Below, piece by piece: positions 50,905-57,464 of a stretch of DNA of 59,973 nucleotides. Below the pieces are notes generated by a model. It did no database searches. It was not told where the DNA came from and worked only from the letters and a program-made list of their open reading frames with translations. A program made the translations under genes and the position numbers. Numbering within the stretch: position 1 is the stretch's first letter; the number at the start of each line of letters is the position of its first letter. The stretch comes from a virus: IMG/VR virus record IMGVR_UViG_3300017743_000009, positions 1 to 59,973 of that record. One strand, written 5' to 3'.

Positions 50905-51345
50905 ATGGCGTATAAAGGTAAATTTAAACCTATTAACTATTACAAGTATTTAGGTAACCCTACAAATATTATTTATCGAAGTCTATGGGAATGTAAGCTA
51001 ATGTCCTATTTAGACAGGCATAATGATGTAATAGGATGGGCAAGTGAGGAGATAGCAATCCCATATCGTAGCCCTTTAGATGGAAGAAAGCATAGATACT
51101 TTCCTGATTTTTATGTAAAAAGAAAAATAGGGAGCAGTATTAAAGAATCTTTAATTGAAGTAAAACCATATAAACAGACAATGCCGCCTAAAATAACTAA
51201 AAGTAAATCCCCTACTAAAAAGTATTTAAATGAGGTTAGAGCTTGGGGTGTTAATGAGGCTAAATGGAACGCAGCTACTGAATATTGTAAAGATAGAGGC
51301 TGGGATTTTAAAATAATGACCGAGAATGAACTAGGGATCAAATAA
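50905..51345 (+). CDS. gp4: Head completion protein gp4, PD-(D/E)XK nuclease fold
   Basis: A 146-residue protein close to T4 gp4 (150). It has IIYRSLWECKLMSYLD, EEIAIPYRSPLDGRKHRYFPDFYV and SLIEVKPYKQTMPPK, with C-terminal NAATEYCKDRGWDF. Glu29, Asp68, Glu85 and Lys87 form the E...PD...ExK set of TnsA-like nucleases, all intact. gp4 acts after packaging to finish heads before tail joining. It is divergent from gp48 and shares one base with the next gene (TAATG). Confidence 0.93.
   Translation: MAYKGKFKPINYYKYLGNPTNIIYRSLWECKLMSYLDRHNDVIGWASEEIAIPYRSPLDGRKHRYFPDFYVKRKIGSSIKESLIEVKPYKQTMPPKITKSKSPTKKYLNEVRAWGVNEAKWNAATEYCKDRGWDFKIMTENELGIK
50970..50977 (-). promoter_or_regulatory. Possible late-type promoter (GATAAATA) for the gp48 operon
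   Basis: The minus strand has GATAAATA inside the gp4 gene, about 88 bases before the gp48 ATG at 50882. The 22-base divergent gap leaves little room for a minus promoter, so an intragenic site is expected. The match is to the NATAAATA motif only. Confidence 0.35.
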
Positions 51346-51995
51346 TGGCTTTACAATATCTTTTTCAAAAAATTATTAAAGATGCAGCTCTTTTAAATAT
51401 TTCAGCTGATATGAATAAGAGATCTAGGGAATACTTTAAACAAAAAGCTGGTGAATTACAAAATCAAAGACCGGCTAATATTCTTAAAAGAAAATCAGTT
51501 CAAGAAAATGCAACTGCTCAAATACCTTTTAAACCAGGTGATATATTTCTTTTTAATTATATGCCTAAAAATGCAAACAACGAGAGACTGTTACCATACT
51601 ATGATAGATACCCATTAATAGTACTAGTAGATGTAACACCTGAATATGTTTGTGGGTTAAACTTCCACTATTTACCATATGAAGAAAGAGCAGTTTTATT
51701 AACTCAACTATATAATTTTTTAGTAGAAGATACTAGTGGTACAGAAGGTCTAGATACTATGTTGGGAGATAAAGCATTCTTAGATGTTACATATGATAAG
51801 ATAAAGTTACTAGATGTTCCTAAGAGTTATTGGAAACCCTGTTTTAAAAAGTACCTAAATACTAATATAAGGGGCAAATTATTAAAGATACATCCACAAG
51901 AATGGGATATTATTTTACAGCTACCGCTAGAGAGATTTGTTAGAGCTAATAGACAAAGAGTATTTAATGATTCTCGTAATAAATGGAATAAGTAA
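51345..51995 (+). CDS. Conserved T4-like protein of unknown function
   Basis: A 216-residue protein between gp4 and gp54. It has a helical N-terminus (ALQYLFQKIIKDAALL), then FKPGDIFLFNYMPKNANNERLLPYYDRYPLIVLVD and VCGLNFHYLPYEERAVLLTQLYNF, and a C-terminal YWKPCFKKYLNTNIRGKLLKI. The PYYDR.PL / GLNFHYLP pattern recurs in hypothetical proteins of marine T4-like phages. T4 has the DNA end protector gp2 next to gp4, but I cannot claim homology. It overlaps both neighbours by one base, so head or tail completion is likely. Confidence 0.8.
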   Translation: MALQYLFQKIIKDAALLNISADMNKRSREYFKQKAGELQNQRPANILKRKSVQENATAQIPFKPGDIFLFNYMPKNANNERLLPYYDRYPLIVLVDVTPEYVCGLNFHYLPYEERAVLLTQLYNFLVEDTSGTEGLDTMLGDKAFLDVTYDKIKLLDVPKSYWKPCFKKYLNTNIRGKLLKIHPQEWDIILQLPLERFVRANRQRVFNDSRNKWNK

Positions 51996-52753
51996 TGACA
52001 TTTAATATAAATGACATAAAATCTAAGGTTAATGGAATGCAGGGATTACAAGTCCCTAACTTATGTCAAGTAAAATTTAACCCTAGAGGTAAGCAGCCAG
52101 GATGGGCTAAAAATAGAGAATCATTGAGCCTTCTAGGTTATGCCTTTGCCATACCAGCTTTAAATTTAGTTACTACTCAAGTAAGAAGACAAGGGTTTGG
52201 TGTTTCAGAGCAAAGAGCAGTAAATTATGCTCCTAGTACAATTAGTCTTGAATTCTTTTTAGATAACAATAACACAGTTTTAGATTTTTTTAACCAATGG
52301 GCCTTAAGACATGTTAATTATCAAGTAGGCTCTGAGAATTCTGTAACTGAAATCGACGGTCAAGAGGCTTTATTTGGCCAAGTTGGATACCAAGAAGACT
52401 ATGCCATGGATTTAGATATAGAAATATATTCACCTATGTCAGAATCAGAAACTATTACAACATATAAAATTAGAGATGCTGCAATAATTAACTTAGGCAA
52501 TATTGAGCTAGGTTGGCAGCAAAATAATGAGATTACAACTCTAACAGTACAGCTAAGTTACAGAAGTTTTATACCAGAATCTAACCCAGTACCTCAAGGA
52601 ACTGCGGGTGGTAAAGGATTAAATTTATTTCAATTTATAAGTAAAATGAAAGGTGCTGTAGAGGTAGTTAAAAGCTTTGAAAAACCATCGAATGTTCAAG
52701 ATGCTTTAAACTTAATTAATAATGCAAAAACCCTAGGATCGGGATTCGATTAA
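51995..52753 (+). CDS. gp54: Baseplate tail-tube initiator gp54
   Basis: A 252-residue protein (T4 gp54 has 320). Its start MTFNINDIKSKV parallels the gp19 tube protein at the left edge (MAFNINEIRSQL), followed by NLCQVKFNPRG, ALNLVTTQVRRQGFG and STISLEFFLDNN, as in tube-fold proteins. It should sit on gp48 and template the first gp19 ring. T4 places 54 near 48 and 29; here it is in the plus-strand group with gp26 and the tape measure. It could be another tube-fold protein, but no other gp54 is in the window. Confidence 0.82.
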   Translation: MTFNINDIKSKVNGMQGLQVPNLCQVKFNPRGKQPGWAKNRESLSLLGYAFAIPALNLVTTQVRRQGFGVSEQRAVNYAPSTISLEFFLDNNNTVLDFFNQWALRHVNYQVGSENSVTEIDGQEALFGQVGYQEDYAMDLDIEIYSPMSESETITTYKIRDAAIINLGNIELGWQQNNEITTLTVQLSYRSFIPESNPVPQGTAGGKGLNLFQFISKMKGAVEVVKSFEKPSNVQDALNLINNAKTLGSGFD

Positions 52754-52769
52754 ATAATGGAGAAAAATA

Positions 52770-53513
52770 ATGTTACCAAAAATTGATACACCAATTTTTG
52801 ATATTGAGCTACCAATATCTAAAAAAGTGATTAAAGTGAAACCTTTTACAGTAAAAGAAGAAAAATTACTTCTTTTTGCTCAACAATCAAACTCAGATAA
52901 GTCAATTATTGAATCAGTTATGCAGGTTTGTAATAACTGTTTAGTAGAAGATATTGATGTAAGAAAATTAGCTTCATTCGAATTAGAATATCTGTTTATT
53001 AAATTGAGAGCAGTCTCTATTAATAATATAATTAAATTAAATATTTTAGATGAAAAGAATTCAACTGAAGATACACCAGTTTATATTCAAACAGATTTAA
53101 ATTTAGATGACGCAGAAATAAAAGTAAACTCTGAAAAAGAAATAGCTGACAGAATAAAATTGGATGATACCTATTCTATTAAATTAAGATACCCAGCATA
53201 CTCTCAATTAGATGCTATAGATATGAAACCTAATGAAGATAAAGCAGCAGGAGATATTGCTGTATCATTAATATCAAGTGTAATCGAATCAGTTTACAAT
53301 CAAGATGGTAGTGAAGTTTATGTTTTAGATGACTATAACCAAGAAGAGAAAGATGAATTTCTTTCAAGTTTAACATCAAAGAACTTTGCACAAATACAAG
53401 AATTTTTATCATTAGCTCCAGTTTTATATTCAAAAATAAAATATGAAAATGAAGAAGGTGATAAATTTGAAAGGGAGTTGAGAGGGTTAGCTGATTTTTT
53501 TATGTTAGCCTAA
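52770..53513 (+). CDS. gp26: Baseplate hub assembly protein gp26 (T4_baseplate family)
   Basis: A 247-residue protein of the gp26/T4_baseplate family (T4 gp26 has 208). Markers: LPKIDTPIFDIELPISKKVIKVKPFTVKEEKLLLFAQ, LASFELEYLFIKLRA, and YSIKLRYPAYSQLDAID. An AGAAAAA-type weak site lies upstream. Near the stop the sequence GAT TTT TTT ATG contains a T7 slippery site (53495-53501); a -1 shift there would add 62 residues, giving a 306-aa product (see 53501-53689). This mirrors the gpG/gpGT tail-chaperone arrangement of other phages just before a tape measure gene. Confidence 0.88.
   Translation: MLPKIDTPIFDIELPISKKVIKVKPFTVKEEKLLLFAQQSNSDKSIIESVMQVCNNCLVEDIDVRKLASFELEYLFIKLRAVSINNIIKLNILDEKNSTEDTPVYIQTDLNLDDAEIKVNSEKEIADRIKLDDTYSIKLRYPAYSQLDAIDMKPNEDKAAGDIAVSLISSVIESVYNQDGSEVYVLDDYNQEEKDEFLSSLTSKNFAQIQEFLSLAPVLYSKIKYENEEGDKFERELRGLADFFMLA
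53495..53501 (+). promoter_or_regulatory. Slippery heptamer T_TTT_TTT for -1 frameshift
   Basis: Seven T residues lie in the phase X_XXY_YYZ relative to the gp26 frame (GA-T TTT TTT ATG), four codons before the gp26 TAA. Both tRNAs can re-pair after slipping back by one base. The -1 frame then stays open for 62 codons. No clear downstream pseudoknot was identified by eye. Confidence 0.7.
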
Positions 53514-53689
53514 GCCATACGGACTTAGGAAATCATTATCAATTACAGTTTAACCTGGCTCAGCATCATAAATACTCGTTAACGGAGCTAGAAAATATGT
53601 ATCCGTTTGAGCGTGAGTTATATACTGAAATGTTAGTGGATTATTTAAAGGCTCAGGAAGAAGCTAGAAAGAGGAATAATAATGGCTAA
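53501..53689 (+). CDS. gp51: gp51-position extension read in -1 frame after gp26
   Basis: The -1 frame is open from the slippery site to TAA at 53687-53689 and encodes 62 residues including LGNHYQLQFNLAQHHKYSLT, ELENMYPFERELYTEMLVDYLK and AQEEARKRNNNG. The H.YSL.ELE.M.P.ERE.Y..ML..YL pattern is typical of the C-terminal part of phage tail-assembly chaperone frameshift products. The only in-frame ATG (about 53617) would start in the middle of this motif, so independent initiation is unlikely. In T4, gene 51 (hub assembly) follows gene 26. The end overlaps the next gene by eight bases. The gene name rests on position. Confidence 0.72.
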   Translation, partial: YVSLSHTDLGNHYQLQFNLAQHHKYSLTELENMYPFERELYTEMLVDYLKAQEEARKRNNNG

Positions 53690-54050
53690 AGATAATGACA
53701 GGAATGAAGTAGAAATAGATCTGGATAAGTATATGGCTTTAATCGAAAAGATTGATGGTCAAGAAGATACTATAAAGGAATTAAAGGAAGAAGCAGAAGC
53801 AGCACGTAAGCAGCTAGCTCCTCCTAAAAGAAAATTTATGGACTTATTTCTGGATGATAATGACGTAAATGAAAAGGCAATAATTGGATTTATTTCATTT
53901 AGTTTAATGACTATATTTGGTGTTTGTGATCTAATCACTGCATTTATGGGTCAAGATCTAGTTATATCTGATACAATTTATACATCATTTGTTGTAGTAA
54001 CACTTGGTGCATTTGGTATTAGTGAAGCTGGAAAAGCGTTCGGTAAATAG
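53682..54050 (+). CDS. Small membrane protein with coiled coil and two helices, holin-like
   Basis: A 122-residue protein. Residues about 12-46 form a charged coiled coil (LDKYMALIEKIDGQEDTIKE); residues 65-88 (KAIIGFISFSLMTIFGVCDLITAF) and 95-114 (VISDTIYTSFVVVTLGAFGI) are hydrophobic helices. The C-terminus is SEAGKAFGK. An AAAGAGG site precedes the ATG. It lies between the gp26/51 unit and the tape measure, where T4 has 27-28. Two-helix phage proteins of this size are often holins, but it may instead act with the tail in the membrane. Not further identified. Confidence 0.75.
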   Translation: MAKDNDRNEVEIDLDKYMALIEKIDGQEDTIKELKEEAEAARKQLAPPKRKFMDLFLDDNDVNEKAIIGFISFSLMTIFGVCDLITAFMGQDLVISDTIYTSFVVVTLGAFGISEAGKAFGK

Positions 54051-54058
54051 GAAAATAA

Positions 54059-56431
54059 ATGGCAAAAGATGGTAGCGGGACTTTCGACCAACCTAAAATA
54101 GGAAAGAAATTACCTAAAGGTCAAGGCGATCTTAAAACTAACGCACAAGTATTTGGGCTTATTGGTCAGCAGGTTATGCGTATTAATAAGTTAACTGCTG
54201 CAATAGATTCAGGAAACGCTACCCTTGTCAATACATTAGATACACAATTAAATCAAGCTAATAATCTAGCTGGTTCACAGCTAACAGTTTTAACAAATAT
54301 TCAATCTATACTAGGTAATATTGGCTCAAGCCTAGCCCCGCTTGCCGCATTTGCTACTGAGCAAAATGAAGGTAAAGTAGGTAAAGGGGGAATGATGTCC
54401 GGTATAGCTGGCTTCTTTTCACCAAATAAGCAGACTACAGCAGAGATAGATAAAAATACACAGGCAGTAAATAGGCTTGCTTCATCTTATAAAAATTTAG
54501 ATAAACAAGCTGGTAGAATGACAGGGGCAGGTTTAGGGGGAGGAATAGTTGGAGCTACAATAGGTGGTGCAATTGGTGGCCTTGGCAGGGCTGGAATGAT
54601 GGGTGGTGCAGTTGTTGGAGGCACTTTAGGATTACTAGGTGGTGGACTTTTAATGGTAACTGGTGCTTTGTATGTTGGCGCAAAAGCAGTAGAAACATTT
54701 GGTGAAGGTCTTATAAAAGTCGATGAAGGAATGAGAAGATTAAACGGCCTTGATCTTACAATAGACAAATTTAAACAATTAAACCTTGCAATAAACGCTA
54801 TTAATAAAGATATTCAGGCCGGGGAAGCATTAGGCTTTAATATATTCTCTAGATCTAACTTTGAAAATTTAGCAGCTGGTGTTACCACATTAAACAACAC
54901 GGAGCTTGATACCAAAGTTTTTGATGATCTAGGAGCTGCAATAACTAGCTTACAGACTCCAATTTTAGGAGCTGTTGGACTACAAATCTTTAATGCTACT
55001 AATTACCAAAAATTAAAAGATGGAGTAGAAACTTTAGCAGATATAGAAGTTGATCCTATGTTCGCATCAAGAATAGCAGAAGTAGGAAAAGGTATAGGTG
55101 ACTTTACAAGTAATTCTTATACATTCTGGAGCGGAAAAGGCGGGGTGTCTGTAATAGAAAAACTATCAGAAGTAAACCTTAAAAGTTTTGCTGATGGTAT
55201 CAACCATTTAAACTCTATTAAATATGATGATAAGCTACAAAGCAACCTAGCTGGTGCTGGAACAGCAATTGAAAAATTCTTAGATCCTTTAACTGACTAT
55301 TTTGGTAATGATAAAAAAGGTGCTAATATTATTACTACATTAGCTGAGAAAAATACCTTAAAGTCCTTAGCTTTTGGTCTAACAACATTGAACAATATGC
55401 CTAATAAAGAAAGGTTAAAAGAGAGTTTAACATTAATAGGTGAGAGTGTTAAAGCAATGTTAGACGGTTTTAAAAATGCTAAAGCTGCAGGGGTAATGAC
55501 ATCATTAACAGCAGAAGACTTTACTACTCTAGTAAAAGGTATGGAAGACCTTCAATCACTGGTATCTAAACCAGTAGATATACTTAATGACATGGGCGAA
55601 AAGGTAGGGTCAGTTAGAAATTCAGAAGTATTAAAATCAGATTTTGAAGCTTTAGGTCAATCTTTAACTGCATTAATGAGTGGATTAGAAAGATCAAAAG
55701 TAAACAGTTTAAGAAAGTTAACAGGGGCAGGATCTTTATTTGATAAGAATGCTTTAGTAGAATTAGAAGAGGGTATTGCAAGTTTGAATGCACTACCTGC
55801 TATAGATACAGAAAACTTTGAAAAGATAGGCCAAGCACTTTATAGTGTAGTCACAGGATCAAGAGGTAAAACAACTGCAGAAGAATTTACACAAATGCAA
55901 GATTCAGGATTTTGGGATAGATCGCTATTAGTTTTTGATAATGGTATGAATTATTTTGCTAGTATATTTAAAGAATCACCTCTTGAAGATGCCGCAAAAG
56001 GTATGCAATTAATGAGTGCTACTATTAAAAGTTATGAAGAAGTAGATGAGGAACAATTAACAAATTTTGTAACTGGTGCTAATGCAATACGTAATGTTAT
56101 GAGCACATTATCAGATGAAAATATTGCAGGAACTTCTAACTACGAGAAATTAAACAAGTTTATAAAAACAATATCTAAATTAGATGCAGATAACTTAAGT
56201 AATATATCAGAAATAGCTGATACTTTAGGTGTCGCTGTTCAAGGTCAAGCTATTACTGAAAGACAGGTCAATGCTTTAAGAACGGCTGTAGTACAGCAAG
56301 TGTTAAATACTTCAGTAATAGATAACTCATCACAAACAAACGTCACAGCACCCTCATCAAGTAAAACAATAACTTATGGTTCAGGTGGTTCGGCATCATA
56401 CGTTCCAGTATCAGTATTAGTTTCTAAATAA
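54059..56431 (+). CDS. gp29: Tail tape measure protein, gp29-like
   Basis: A 790-residue protein (T4 gp29 has 590). Residues 1-150 are Asn/Gln-rich helices; residues about 150-215 are a long Gly/Ala/Leu hydrophobic stretch (LGGGIVGATIGGAIGGLG, MMGGAVVGGTLGLLGGGLLM), typical of tape measures that insert in the host membrane. The rest has imperfect repeats of about 60-70 residues, each with a 'GI..LN.L......L...G.ai...l' pattern (FADGINHLNSIKYDD, LAFGLTTLNNMPNKE, LEEGIASLNALPAID). Position after the gp26/51 frameshift unit supports it. It sets tail length. Its stop abuts the opposite-strand tRNA. Confidence 0.88.
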   Translation: MAKDGSGTFDQPKIGKKLPKGQGDLKTNAQVFGLIGQQVMRINKLTAAIDSGNATLVNTLDTQLNQANNLAGSQLTVLTNIQSILGNIGSSLAPLAAFATEQNEGKVGKGGMMSGIAGFFSPNKQTTAEIDKNTQAVNRLASSYKNLDKQAGRMTGAGLGGGIVGATIGGAIGGLGRAGMMGGAVVGGTLGLLGGGLLMVTGALYVGAKAVETFGEGLIKVDEGMRRLNGLDLTIDKFKQLNLAINAINKDIQAGEALGFNIFSRSNFENLAAGVTTLNNTELDTKVFDDLGAAITSLQTPILGAVGLQIFNATNYQKLKDGVETLADIEVDPMFASRIAEVGKGIGDFTSNSYTFWSGKGGVSVIEKLSEVNLKSFADGINHLNSIKYDDKLQSNLAGAGTAIEKFLDPLTDYFGNDKKGANIITTLAEKNTLKSLAFGLTTLNNMPNKERLKESLTLIGESVKAMLDGFKNAKAAGVMTSLTAEDFTTLVKGMEDLQSLVSKPVDILNDMGEKVGSVRNSEVLKSDFEALGQSLTALMSGLERSKVNSLRKLTGAGSLFDKNALVELEEGIASLNALPAIDTENFEKIGQALYSVVTGSRGKTTAEEFTQMQDSGFWDRSLLVFDNGMNYFASIFKESPLEDAAKGMQLMSATIKSYEEVDEEQLTNFVTGANAIRNVMSTLSDENIAGTSNYEKLNKFIKTISKLDADNLSNISEIADTLGVAVQGQAITERQVNALRTAVVQQVLNTSVIDNSSQTNVTAPSSSKTITYGSGGSASYVPVSVLVSK

Positions 56432-56432
56432 T

Positions 56433-56509
56433 TGGCGCACCCACCAGGAGTCGAACCTGGAACCTACAGCTTAGAAGGCTGTTGCTCTATCCAATTGAGC
56501 TATGGGCGC
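56433..56509 (-). tRNA. tRNA-Arg (anticodon UCU), CCA encoded
   Basis: The minus strand folds as a complete 77-base tRNA: acceptor GCGCCCA/TGGGTGC with one G-T pair, D stem GCTC/GAGC, anticodon stem ACAGC/GCTGT with loop CTTCTAA (anticodon TCT), five-base variable loop AGGTT, T arm CCAGG-TTCGACT-CCTGG, discriminator G and encoded CCA. It reads AGA, the main Arg codon of the tetrad-repeat fibres. It lies one base from the end of the tape measure gene on the other strand and 50 bases after gp32, behind a terminator-like hairpin. Confidence 0.96.
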
Positions 56510-56515
56510 TCAAAC

Positions 56516-56544
56516 AAAAAAATGGGGCAGCATGATACCGCCCC
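56516..56544 (-). terminator. Rho-independent terminator after gp32
   Basis: In minus-strand RNA, GGGGCGG-TATCATG-CTGCCCC forms a seven-pair GC-rich stem with one G-U pair and a seven-base loop, followed by ATTTTTTTG. It lies 14 bases after the gp32 stop and just before the tRNA, so it should end most gp32 transcripts before the tRNA gene. Confidence 0.85.
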
Positions 56545-56558
56545 CAGAAGAGAATTAG

Positions 56559-57464
56559 CTATTCAGCTAATTTCTGAAAAAACGACATTGTGTCGTCATC
56601 ACCAGAGTCAGAAGAAAGAGGAACATCTTCATCGGCTGATGTAGTAGGAATAGATGGTGCAGCTATCTCAGGTTGAGGTTGAGGTGCTGAAGCAACTGGT
56701 TGACTACTTGTTTCACCTAAGGCTAAAACTCTATAGAGCTTAGTCTTTAATTCATCATATGTCTTGAAGTTTTCAGAAACAGTAAACTCATTAAGAGGAT
56801 ACTCTGTTTTCCAAACTGTTTCAAGCAAGCTGTCATCGCTACTTAGCGGTGCTGGACTATCAAATTCCGACTTATCATAATTCCTGTAACCTTCTACATT
56901 ACGTATTTTAAGCTTGAAGTCAGCTCCAGCCCAAAGGTCAAACGGGTTAACAGGATTTTCATCTTCAAATTGTGGGTTCATAAGATCATTTAATTTCTCA
57001 AAGATCTTTTTACCATATTTGTAGAGGAATACTTTACCTTCATTTTCAGGTCTAGTAGGGTCTTTAACAATATAAATGTTAGAATAAAAAGAAAGCCTTC
57101 TTTTATATTTTCTAACTAAGTCTTTATTAGCTTCAATACCTGAATTCCAGAGCATAGTATTATACTCAGATACAGGATCTTTCTGACCAACAGTAGTTAA
57201 AGATTTTTCGATATACCATTGCCCAGTAGGTCCTTGGAAGCCATGATCCCATACTCTTACGAATGGTACATCTTCATTTTCTGGTGCTGGTAAAAATCTG
57301 ATAACTGCATAACCGTTCCCTGCTTTATCAACATCAGGTTTCCAGATTCTATCATCTGGTCCATTTTGCTTTTTAGGACTGCTATCCAGTTTAGTTAGTG
57401 CCTCGGTAAGTTTATTAAGCTCAGAAGCCGAGTTCTTCTTAAGTGCTTCAAATGATTGCGACAT
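56559..57464 (-). CDS. gp32: Single-stranded DNA-binding protein gp32
   Basis: A 301-residue protein from the ATG at 57464 (MSQSFEALKKN), chosen because AAGGAGA lies seven bases upstream; an in-frame ATG further upstream would overlap gp59. T4 gp32 is also 301 residues. The basic LAST-like N-terminus, core KYKRRLSFYSNIYIVKDPTRPENEGKVFLYKYGKKIFEKL and acidic tail (DEDVPLSSDSGDDDTMSFFQKL) fit gp32. The protein contains no Cys at all, so the T4 zinc site (three Cys, one His) is absent. It coats ssDNA in replication and repair. Confidence 0.96.
   Translation of the reverse strand: MSQSFEALKKNSASELNKLTEALTKLDSSPKKQNGPDDRIWKPDVDKAGNGYAVIRFLPAPENEDVPFVRVWDHGFQGPTGQWYIEKSLTTVGQKDPVSEYNTMLWNSGIEANKDLVRKYKRRLSFYSNIYIVKDPTRPENEGKVFLYKYGKKIFEKLNDLMNPQFEDENPVNPFDLWAGADFKLKIRNVEGYRNYDKSEFDSPAPLSSDDSLLETVWKTEYPLNEFTVSENFKTYDELKTKLYRVLALGETSSQPVASAPQPQPEIAAPSIPTTSADEDVPLSSDSGDDDTMSFFQKLAE

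Follow-up and report, generated by a model that had tools for sequence, protein, structure and literature searches.

The gp26 gene of an uncultured T4-like phage is followed, in the −1 frame, by a second protein-coding stretch that has no usable start codon, and the question raised by this locus is how that second frame comes to be translated. The DNA analysed here (the window) comprises positions 1 to 59,973 of IMG/VR record IMGVR_UViG_3300017743_000009, a length of 59,973 nucleotides, and all features described below lie on its plus strand unless stated otherwise. The locus is in all probability a tail-assembly-chaperone gene that uses programmed −1 ribosomal frameshifting, with the slippage, its rate and the chaperone role being what we infer from sequence. 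The homology of both parts, a signal conserved beyond coding needs, covariation in the RNA and the fused gp51 of phage T4 make the frameshift reading very likely. The joining of gp26 to a gp51 frame, as proposed in an earlier note on this DNA, also draws support from the conservation of the site and frame and from loci in which the second part lacks a start.

The gp26 gene (52770–53513; 247 aa), predicted to encode the short chaperone form (TAC-N), ends in GCT GAT TTT TTT ATG TTA GCC TAA. The slippery site claimed in the earlier note is present base for base and in the correct phase: a run of seven Ts at 53495–53501 constitutes the heptamer T_TTT_TTT in phase with gp26, and is followed by three sense codons and then the gp26 stop. 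A TGA (53492–53494) directly before the T run closes the −1 frame on its upstream side, and the frame is open through 53495–53689. After the slip it encodes 62 residues and a stop (53501–53689), the putative gp51 domain (TAC-C); the peptide over the slip reads FF|YVSLSHTDLGNHYQLQFNLAQHHKYSLTELENMYPFERELYTEMLVDYLKAQEEARKRNNNG, and the predicted junction peptide of the gp26/gp51 fusion in this phage is GLADFFYVSLSHTDLGNHYQLQFNLAQHHK. This frame was said to lack a suitable start, and indeed no ATG, GTG or TTG occurs within 53495–53689 upstream of the ATG at 53597, a start at which would cost the gp51 domain its conserved first half. In-phase T_TTT_TTN sites number eight in the 19,521 codons of the 45 listed genes of the window, and the site at 53495–53501 is the only in-phase A6/T6 heptamer in these genes that lies close to a gene end or leads into more than 40 open −1 codons.

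Both parts have recognizable relatives. The gp26 product matches PF12322 (E 1.3e-47; 162.8 bits, compared with a Pfam cut-off of 24.5) and PHROG 150 (E 8.9e-52), and the −1 peptide matches positions 59–117 of the 121-position profile of PHROG 634, ‘baseplate hub assembly catalyst’, which corresponds to gp51 (E 4.4e-21, 76.3 bits). The designation of the second frame as gp51 by position was thus right as to the relationship and too cautious as to its basis, as the frame is the gp51 C-terminal domain by its profile match. When the PHROG 634 profile is read through on the window it matches 53390–53683 (profile positions 21–117), which suggests that some members of the family have been annotated from starts upstream of the junction. 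In tblastn searches with an E limit of 1 the −1 peptide has matches in 536 phage records, most of them cyanophages.

Phage T4 provides an informative comparison. Its gp26 consists of the PF12322 domain and is the counterpart of the short product, whereas T4 gp51 has a PF12322 domain (residues 1–201, E 3.9e-52) followed by a PHROG 634 extension (residues 147–246, E 1.2e-23) and therefore corresponds to the long, frameshifted product. T4 thus appears from its sequence to have a gene for each form—26 for the short form and 51, an in-frame fusion, for the long—and these are on opposite strands, unlike the single joined locus seen here. The equivalent T4 codons, GAG TTC TTT GAG, are not slippery, in contrast to T_TTT_TTT in the window.

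Conservation of the heptamer and of the open −1 frame was assessed at 94 homologous loci, consisting of the window itself, the phages P-SSM2, S-PM2, phiM12, Cr30, DLP_6 and Mosig, seven further IMG/VR loci (L004–L010), and 80 from a profile scan; the near-identical contigs L001–L003, a duplicate of the window (L011) and T4 were left out of the count. In all 94, T_TTT_TTN is in phase and the −1 frame is open, so that the slippery site, whose conservation had been suggested as a check, is found in every close and medium-distance relative examined. The codon at the second Phe position is TTC in 56 loci, TTT in 36 and TTA in two; in the last two (L027 and L077) Phe-Phe has become Phe-Leu and the heptamer is retained as T_TTT_TTA. 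Among more distant phages, Rhizobium phage RHph_N34 has T_TTT_TTG at the site, and the site is also present in BUCT608, ValKK3, PG216, Asswx_1, DSL-LC03 and S-MS29, of which ValKK3, PG216 and Asswx_1 belong to the Straboviridae. The canonical heptamer is absent from Vibrio phage SUMAE (A_CTT_TTC; L102:2441-3372) and from the ackermannvirus Salmonella phage aagejoakim (G_ATT_TTC; L105:2441-3408), although in both the −1 frame is open after gp26; a weaker site or a different mechanism may operate in them. We considered whether Phe-Phe could be kept for protein reasons alone, and rejected this; the dipeptide is conserved, in T4 as well, but T4 encodes it as TTC TTT, and the two Phe-Leu loci keep the heptamer.

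Codon choice was examined in 85 non-redundant loci, all of them with the site, which only SUMAE, aagejoakim and T4 lack. The codon before the Phe pair, which specifies Ser, Asp, Asn, Ala, Thr or Gly, has T as its last base in 85 of 85 (expectation 50.9; P about 1e-20), and TTT is used for the first Phe in 85 of 85 (expectation 57.5; P about 4e-15), with both probabilities treating related sequences as independent and therefore indicative only. The slippery bases in these loci are fixed far past what codon usage predicts. Further upstream, codons −5 and −4 are enriched for GAG and GGA/GGG, which creates Shine-Dalgarno (SD)-like cores ending mostly 8–11 nt before the heptamer; the mean energy of the anti-SD duplex is −5.79 kcal/mol, compared with −4.05 kcal/mol in synonymous recodings, and the enrichment is seen in loci with and without a near start codon. 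The element in the window is GAGAGGG (53480–53486), 8 nt before the heptamer, and taken alone it is borderline, as 5% of recodings are as strong.

These observations bear on the alternative that survives best, although we consider it very improbable: that gp26 is followed by an independent second gene, whose translation begins by termination-reinitiation or at a start of its own, and that the slippery site is incidental. GenBank annotators often call gp51 as its own gene, and in 71 of the 94 loci there is an ATG, GTG or TTG in the −1 frame at the gp26 stop or no more than 24 nt past it, and in those relatives a free gp51 domain could therefore arise by translational coupling. The other 23 loci, this phage among them, have no near start for a second gene—the earlier note had named separate genes with their own starts as what would count against it—and in the window the first start, ATG 53597, is inside the conserved domain. 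Moreover, the heptamer is fixed in all loci, start or no start; where there is a near start the SD-like element is roughly 25 nt from it, which is too far for initiation, whereas its distance from the heptamer suits stimulation of frameshifting; and T4 gp51 is a fused protein. The separate-gene model is rejected for this phage because no start exists, and no route to the complete gp51 domain other than frameshifting is apparent here.

The 66 nt after the slip fold better than synonymous recodings, with z-scores of −3.86 in the 32 loci with a T7 site and −2.39 in 52 others; the values for a control stretch in gp26 are −0.08 and −0.72, respectively. In the T7 group an 8-bp stem is predicted in which positions 9–16 after the heptamer pair with positions 55–62. 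It retains 7.09 of the 8 pairs, as against 4.91 ± 0.19 in recodings, and 88.7% of its cells are paired in the 32 relatives, as against at most 34% for slid versions; as it was the folds of these sequences that first revealed the stem, more weight falls on the controls by recoding and sliding than on the percentage paired. Its covariation score is 0.333, compared with 0.195 ± 0.021 for shuffles, none of 500 of which reach it, and five pairs have changed on both sides, a number reached by 31 of 500 shuffles. RNAalifold on a mixed alignment gave a consensus energy near zero and no stable consensus, so the claim for the stem rests on the pair counts and recoding controls. On these comparative grounds the putative downstream stem is supported by covariation.

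In the window the arms of the long-range stem are at 53510–53517 and 53556–53563, and form seven of the eight pairs; the one mismatch, 53512/53561, arises because the stop is TAA here and most relatives have G at that position. At −3.75 kcal/mol, the long-range stem of this phage is much less stable than a local hairpin at −11.8 kcal/mol. The latter, CCUAAGCC-AUAC-GGaCUUAGG (53509–53529), begins 7 nt after the heptamer and is the predicted minimum-energy fold and a candidate stimulator. Its z-score is −3.6 against synonymous recoding over 45 nt, and a 106-nt stretch gives the same hairpin with a z of only −1.6 against dinucleotide shuffles. Many cyanophages also fold a local hairpin.

Slippage could also occur at transcription, with RNA polymerase gaining or losing a base at the T run, so that the altered mRNA would give the fusion by ordinary translation; we regard this as slightly less probable still than a separate second gene. 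A run of seven Ts is present, and bacterial polymerase is known to slip on long homopolymers, runs of nine As or Ts (PMC5009743), but many relatives (56 of 94) have six Ts followed by a C, which disfavours this explanation, and slippage by the ribosome fits the conserved phase of the codons as well as the conserved SD-like element and RNA stem. That the short, startless gp51 frame is a decaying remnant, or results from a sequencing error splitting an in-frame fusion, can be dismissed, as the same bases are found in two independent IMG/VR contigs and a partial third and the frame relation is the same in 94 loci, conservation that rules out a pseudogene or an error.

Under programmed ribosomal frameshifting, most ribosomes would read gp26 through to its stop and make the 247-aa short form, TAC-N. 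A minority would pause at T_TTT_TTT, aided by the upstream SD-like element and the downstream RNA stem, and slip back one base, yielding a 306-aa fusion of gp26 residues 1–244 with the 62-residue gp51 domain (TAC-NC). By analogy with gpG and gpGT of phage lambda, the short form would coat the tape measure protein, to which the long form, the rarer of the two, would recruit tube subunits. The lambda heptamer is G_GGA_AAG, in place of the T_TTT_TTT found here, and the T4-like tail here is contractile.

The predicted fold of gp26 agrees with a chaperone role, with the structural Z-scores being modest. An AlphaFold2 model, made from an alignment of viral loci only, has a pLDDT of 87.5 and resembles other phage ‘baseplate hub’ models. 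A sequence profile search with gp26 found no PDB relative, and Foldseek with the model gave no significant PDB match; chaperones came first in the VIA-align comparison alone. The three best VIA-align matches among 998 chains of solved structures are 3fgx, 2ob9 and 3klu, with modest Z-scores of 6.4, 5.5 and 5.3; they cover residues 1–94, with an rmsd of 3.5–3.8 over 82–85 residues. Structure 2ob9 is the HK97 tail assembly chaperone (gp13), and 3klu is YqbN.

We tentatively suggest, with a confidence a little short of even, that the T4-like frameshift signal is a cassette of an internal SD-like element, U_UUU_UUN and a covarying downstream stem, with at least two stem layouts that have a common 5′ arm—long-range in most relatives with a T7 site, and a local hairpin in this phage and numerous cyanophages—and that this architecture is possibly undescribed. 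The −1 signal of Escherichia coli dnaX has an internal SD-like element about 10 nt upstream, a heptamer and a downstream stem-loop, a layout shared with the present cassette. The heptamer and the purpose differ, as that of dnaX is A_AAA_AAG and frameshifting there leads to early termination. The spacing of the elements is of the dnaX type, with an SD-like element within about 8–14 nt upstream and, in the relatives, RNA structure about 5–9 nt past the heptamer; in the window the SD-like element is borderline (5%), the hairpin spacer is 7 nt and the 106-nt shuffle z is only −1.6. The T4 chaperone genes are reportedly 26 and 51, and frameshifting is said to occur in several groups of T4-like phages. 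The SD element of the dnaX frameshift is mentioned in PMC5600365.

Two reviews give the earlier view of these genes: that of 2010 lists T4 gp26 and gp51 as hub assembly chaperones (PMC3004832), and that of 2016 describes the G-T frameshift as widely conserved except in T4 (PMC5009743). The tail assembly chaperone genes of T4-like phages were subsequently identified by Vladimirov, Gautam & Davidson (2022; Virology 566:9-15, as cited in PMC10885494 and PMC12846349). The novelty that the earlier note implied for a 26/51 frameshift in T4-like phages is thus not borne out, going by these citations, and the locus is a correct new instance of a known arrangement. Of the citing papers, PMC12846349 describes poly-T −1 signals as known from the TAC-N genes of T4-like phages, and PMC10885494 states that some T4-like phages have one short gene and one fused longer gene in place of frameshifting, so that the signals and the two-gene alternative are, as reported there, the same as those described here. 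The present phage differs in being uncultured and known from metagenome contigs alone, and in that a conserved SD-like element and a covarying downstream stem are documented; both of these elements may be new. A literature search for frameshifting together with ‘gp51’ in cyanophages found nothing.

Across a large and mostly uncultured sample, T4-like phages would thus appear to set the ratio of their two tail chaperones by recoding, with the model phage T4, which has them as two genes, being the exception. The conserved RNA elements offer concrete sites for reporter tests. The gp51 part is left unannotated in Aeromonas phage Asswx_1 (L104:3166-3354) and Synechococcus phage DSL-LC03 (L106:3214-3408); the start annotated for it in Mosig (L016) and S-MS29 (L107) lies within the conserved domain. 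Since the second part is mis-started or missing in such public genomes, a single joined CDS is the annotation that gp26 and gp51 should receive in these phages.

Just upstream of gp26 is the tail tube gene (51995–52753; PHROG 45, E 2.8e-24). Downstream, the earlier note placed the locus just before the tape measure gene, which is likely; an ORF of 122 aa (53682–54050) intervenes, and the next ORF has no recognizable homologue. The 122-aa ORF shares 8 bases with the end of the −1 frame and has no assigned function, with a partial match to Flavobacterium phages vB_FspM_immuto only; by eye it has probable membrane segments, and other phages carry different small ORFs at this position. The 790-aa ORF that follows (54059–56431) is presumed by position only to encode the tape measure protein; Pfam gave no match, PHROG none with an E below 0.28 and tblastn none among phages, and a BLASTP comparison with the proteins that occupy the tape measure position in phiM12 and Cr30 yielded no match. 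Directly after it, on the minus strand, is a tRNA-Arg gene (anticodon TCT; 56433–56509), and a 70-aa ‘ORF’ (56432–56644) on the strand opposite to the tRNA gene overlaps it and is probably spurious. These genes belong to a short plus-strand cluster (50905–56431) containing gp4 (head closure), gp2 (DNA end protector), the tail tube, gp26/51 and the presumed tape measure gene, and the rest of the window is mainly minus-strand.
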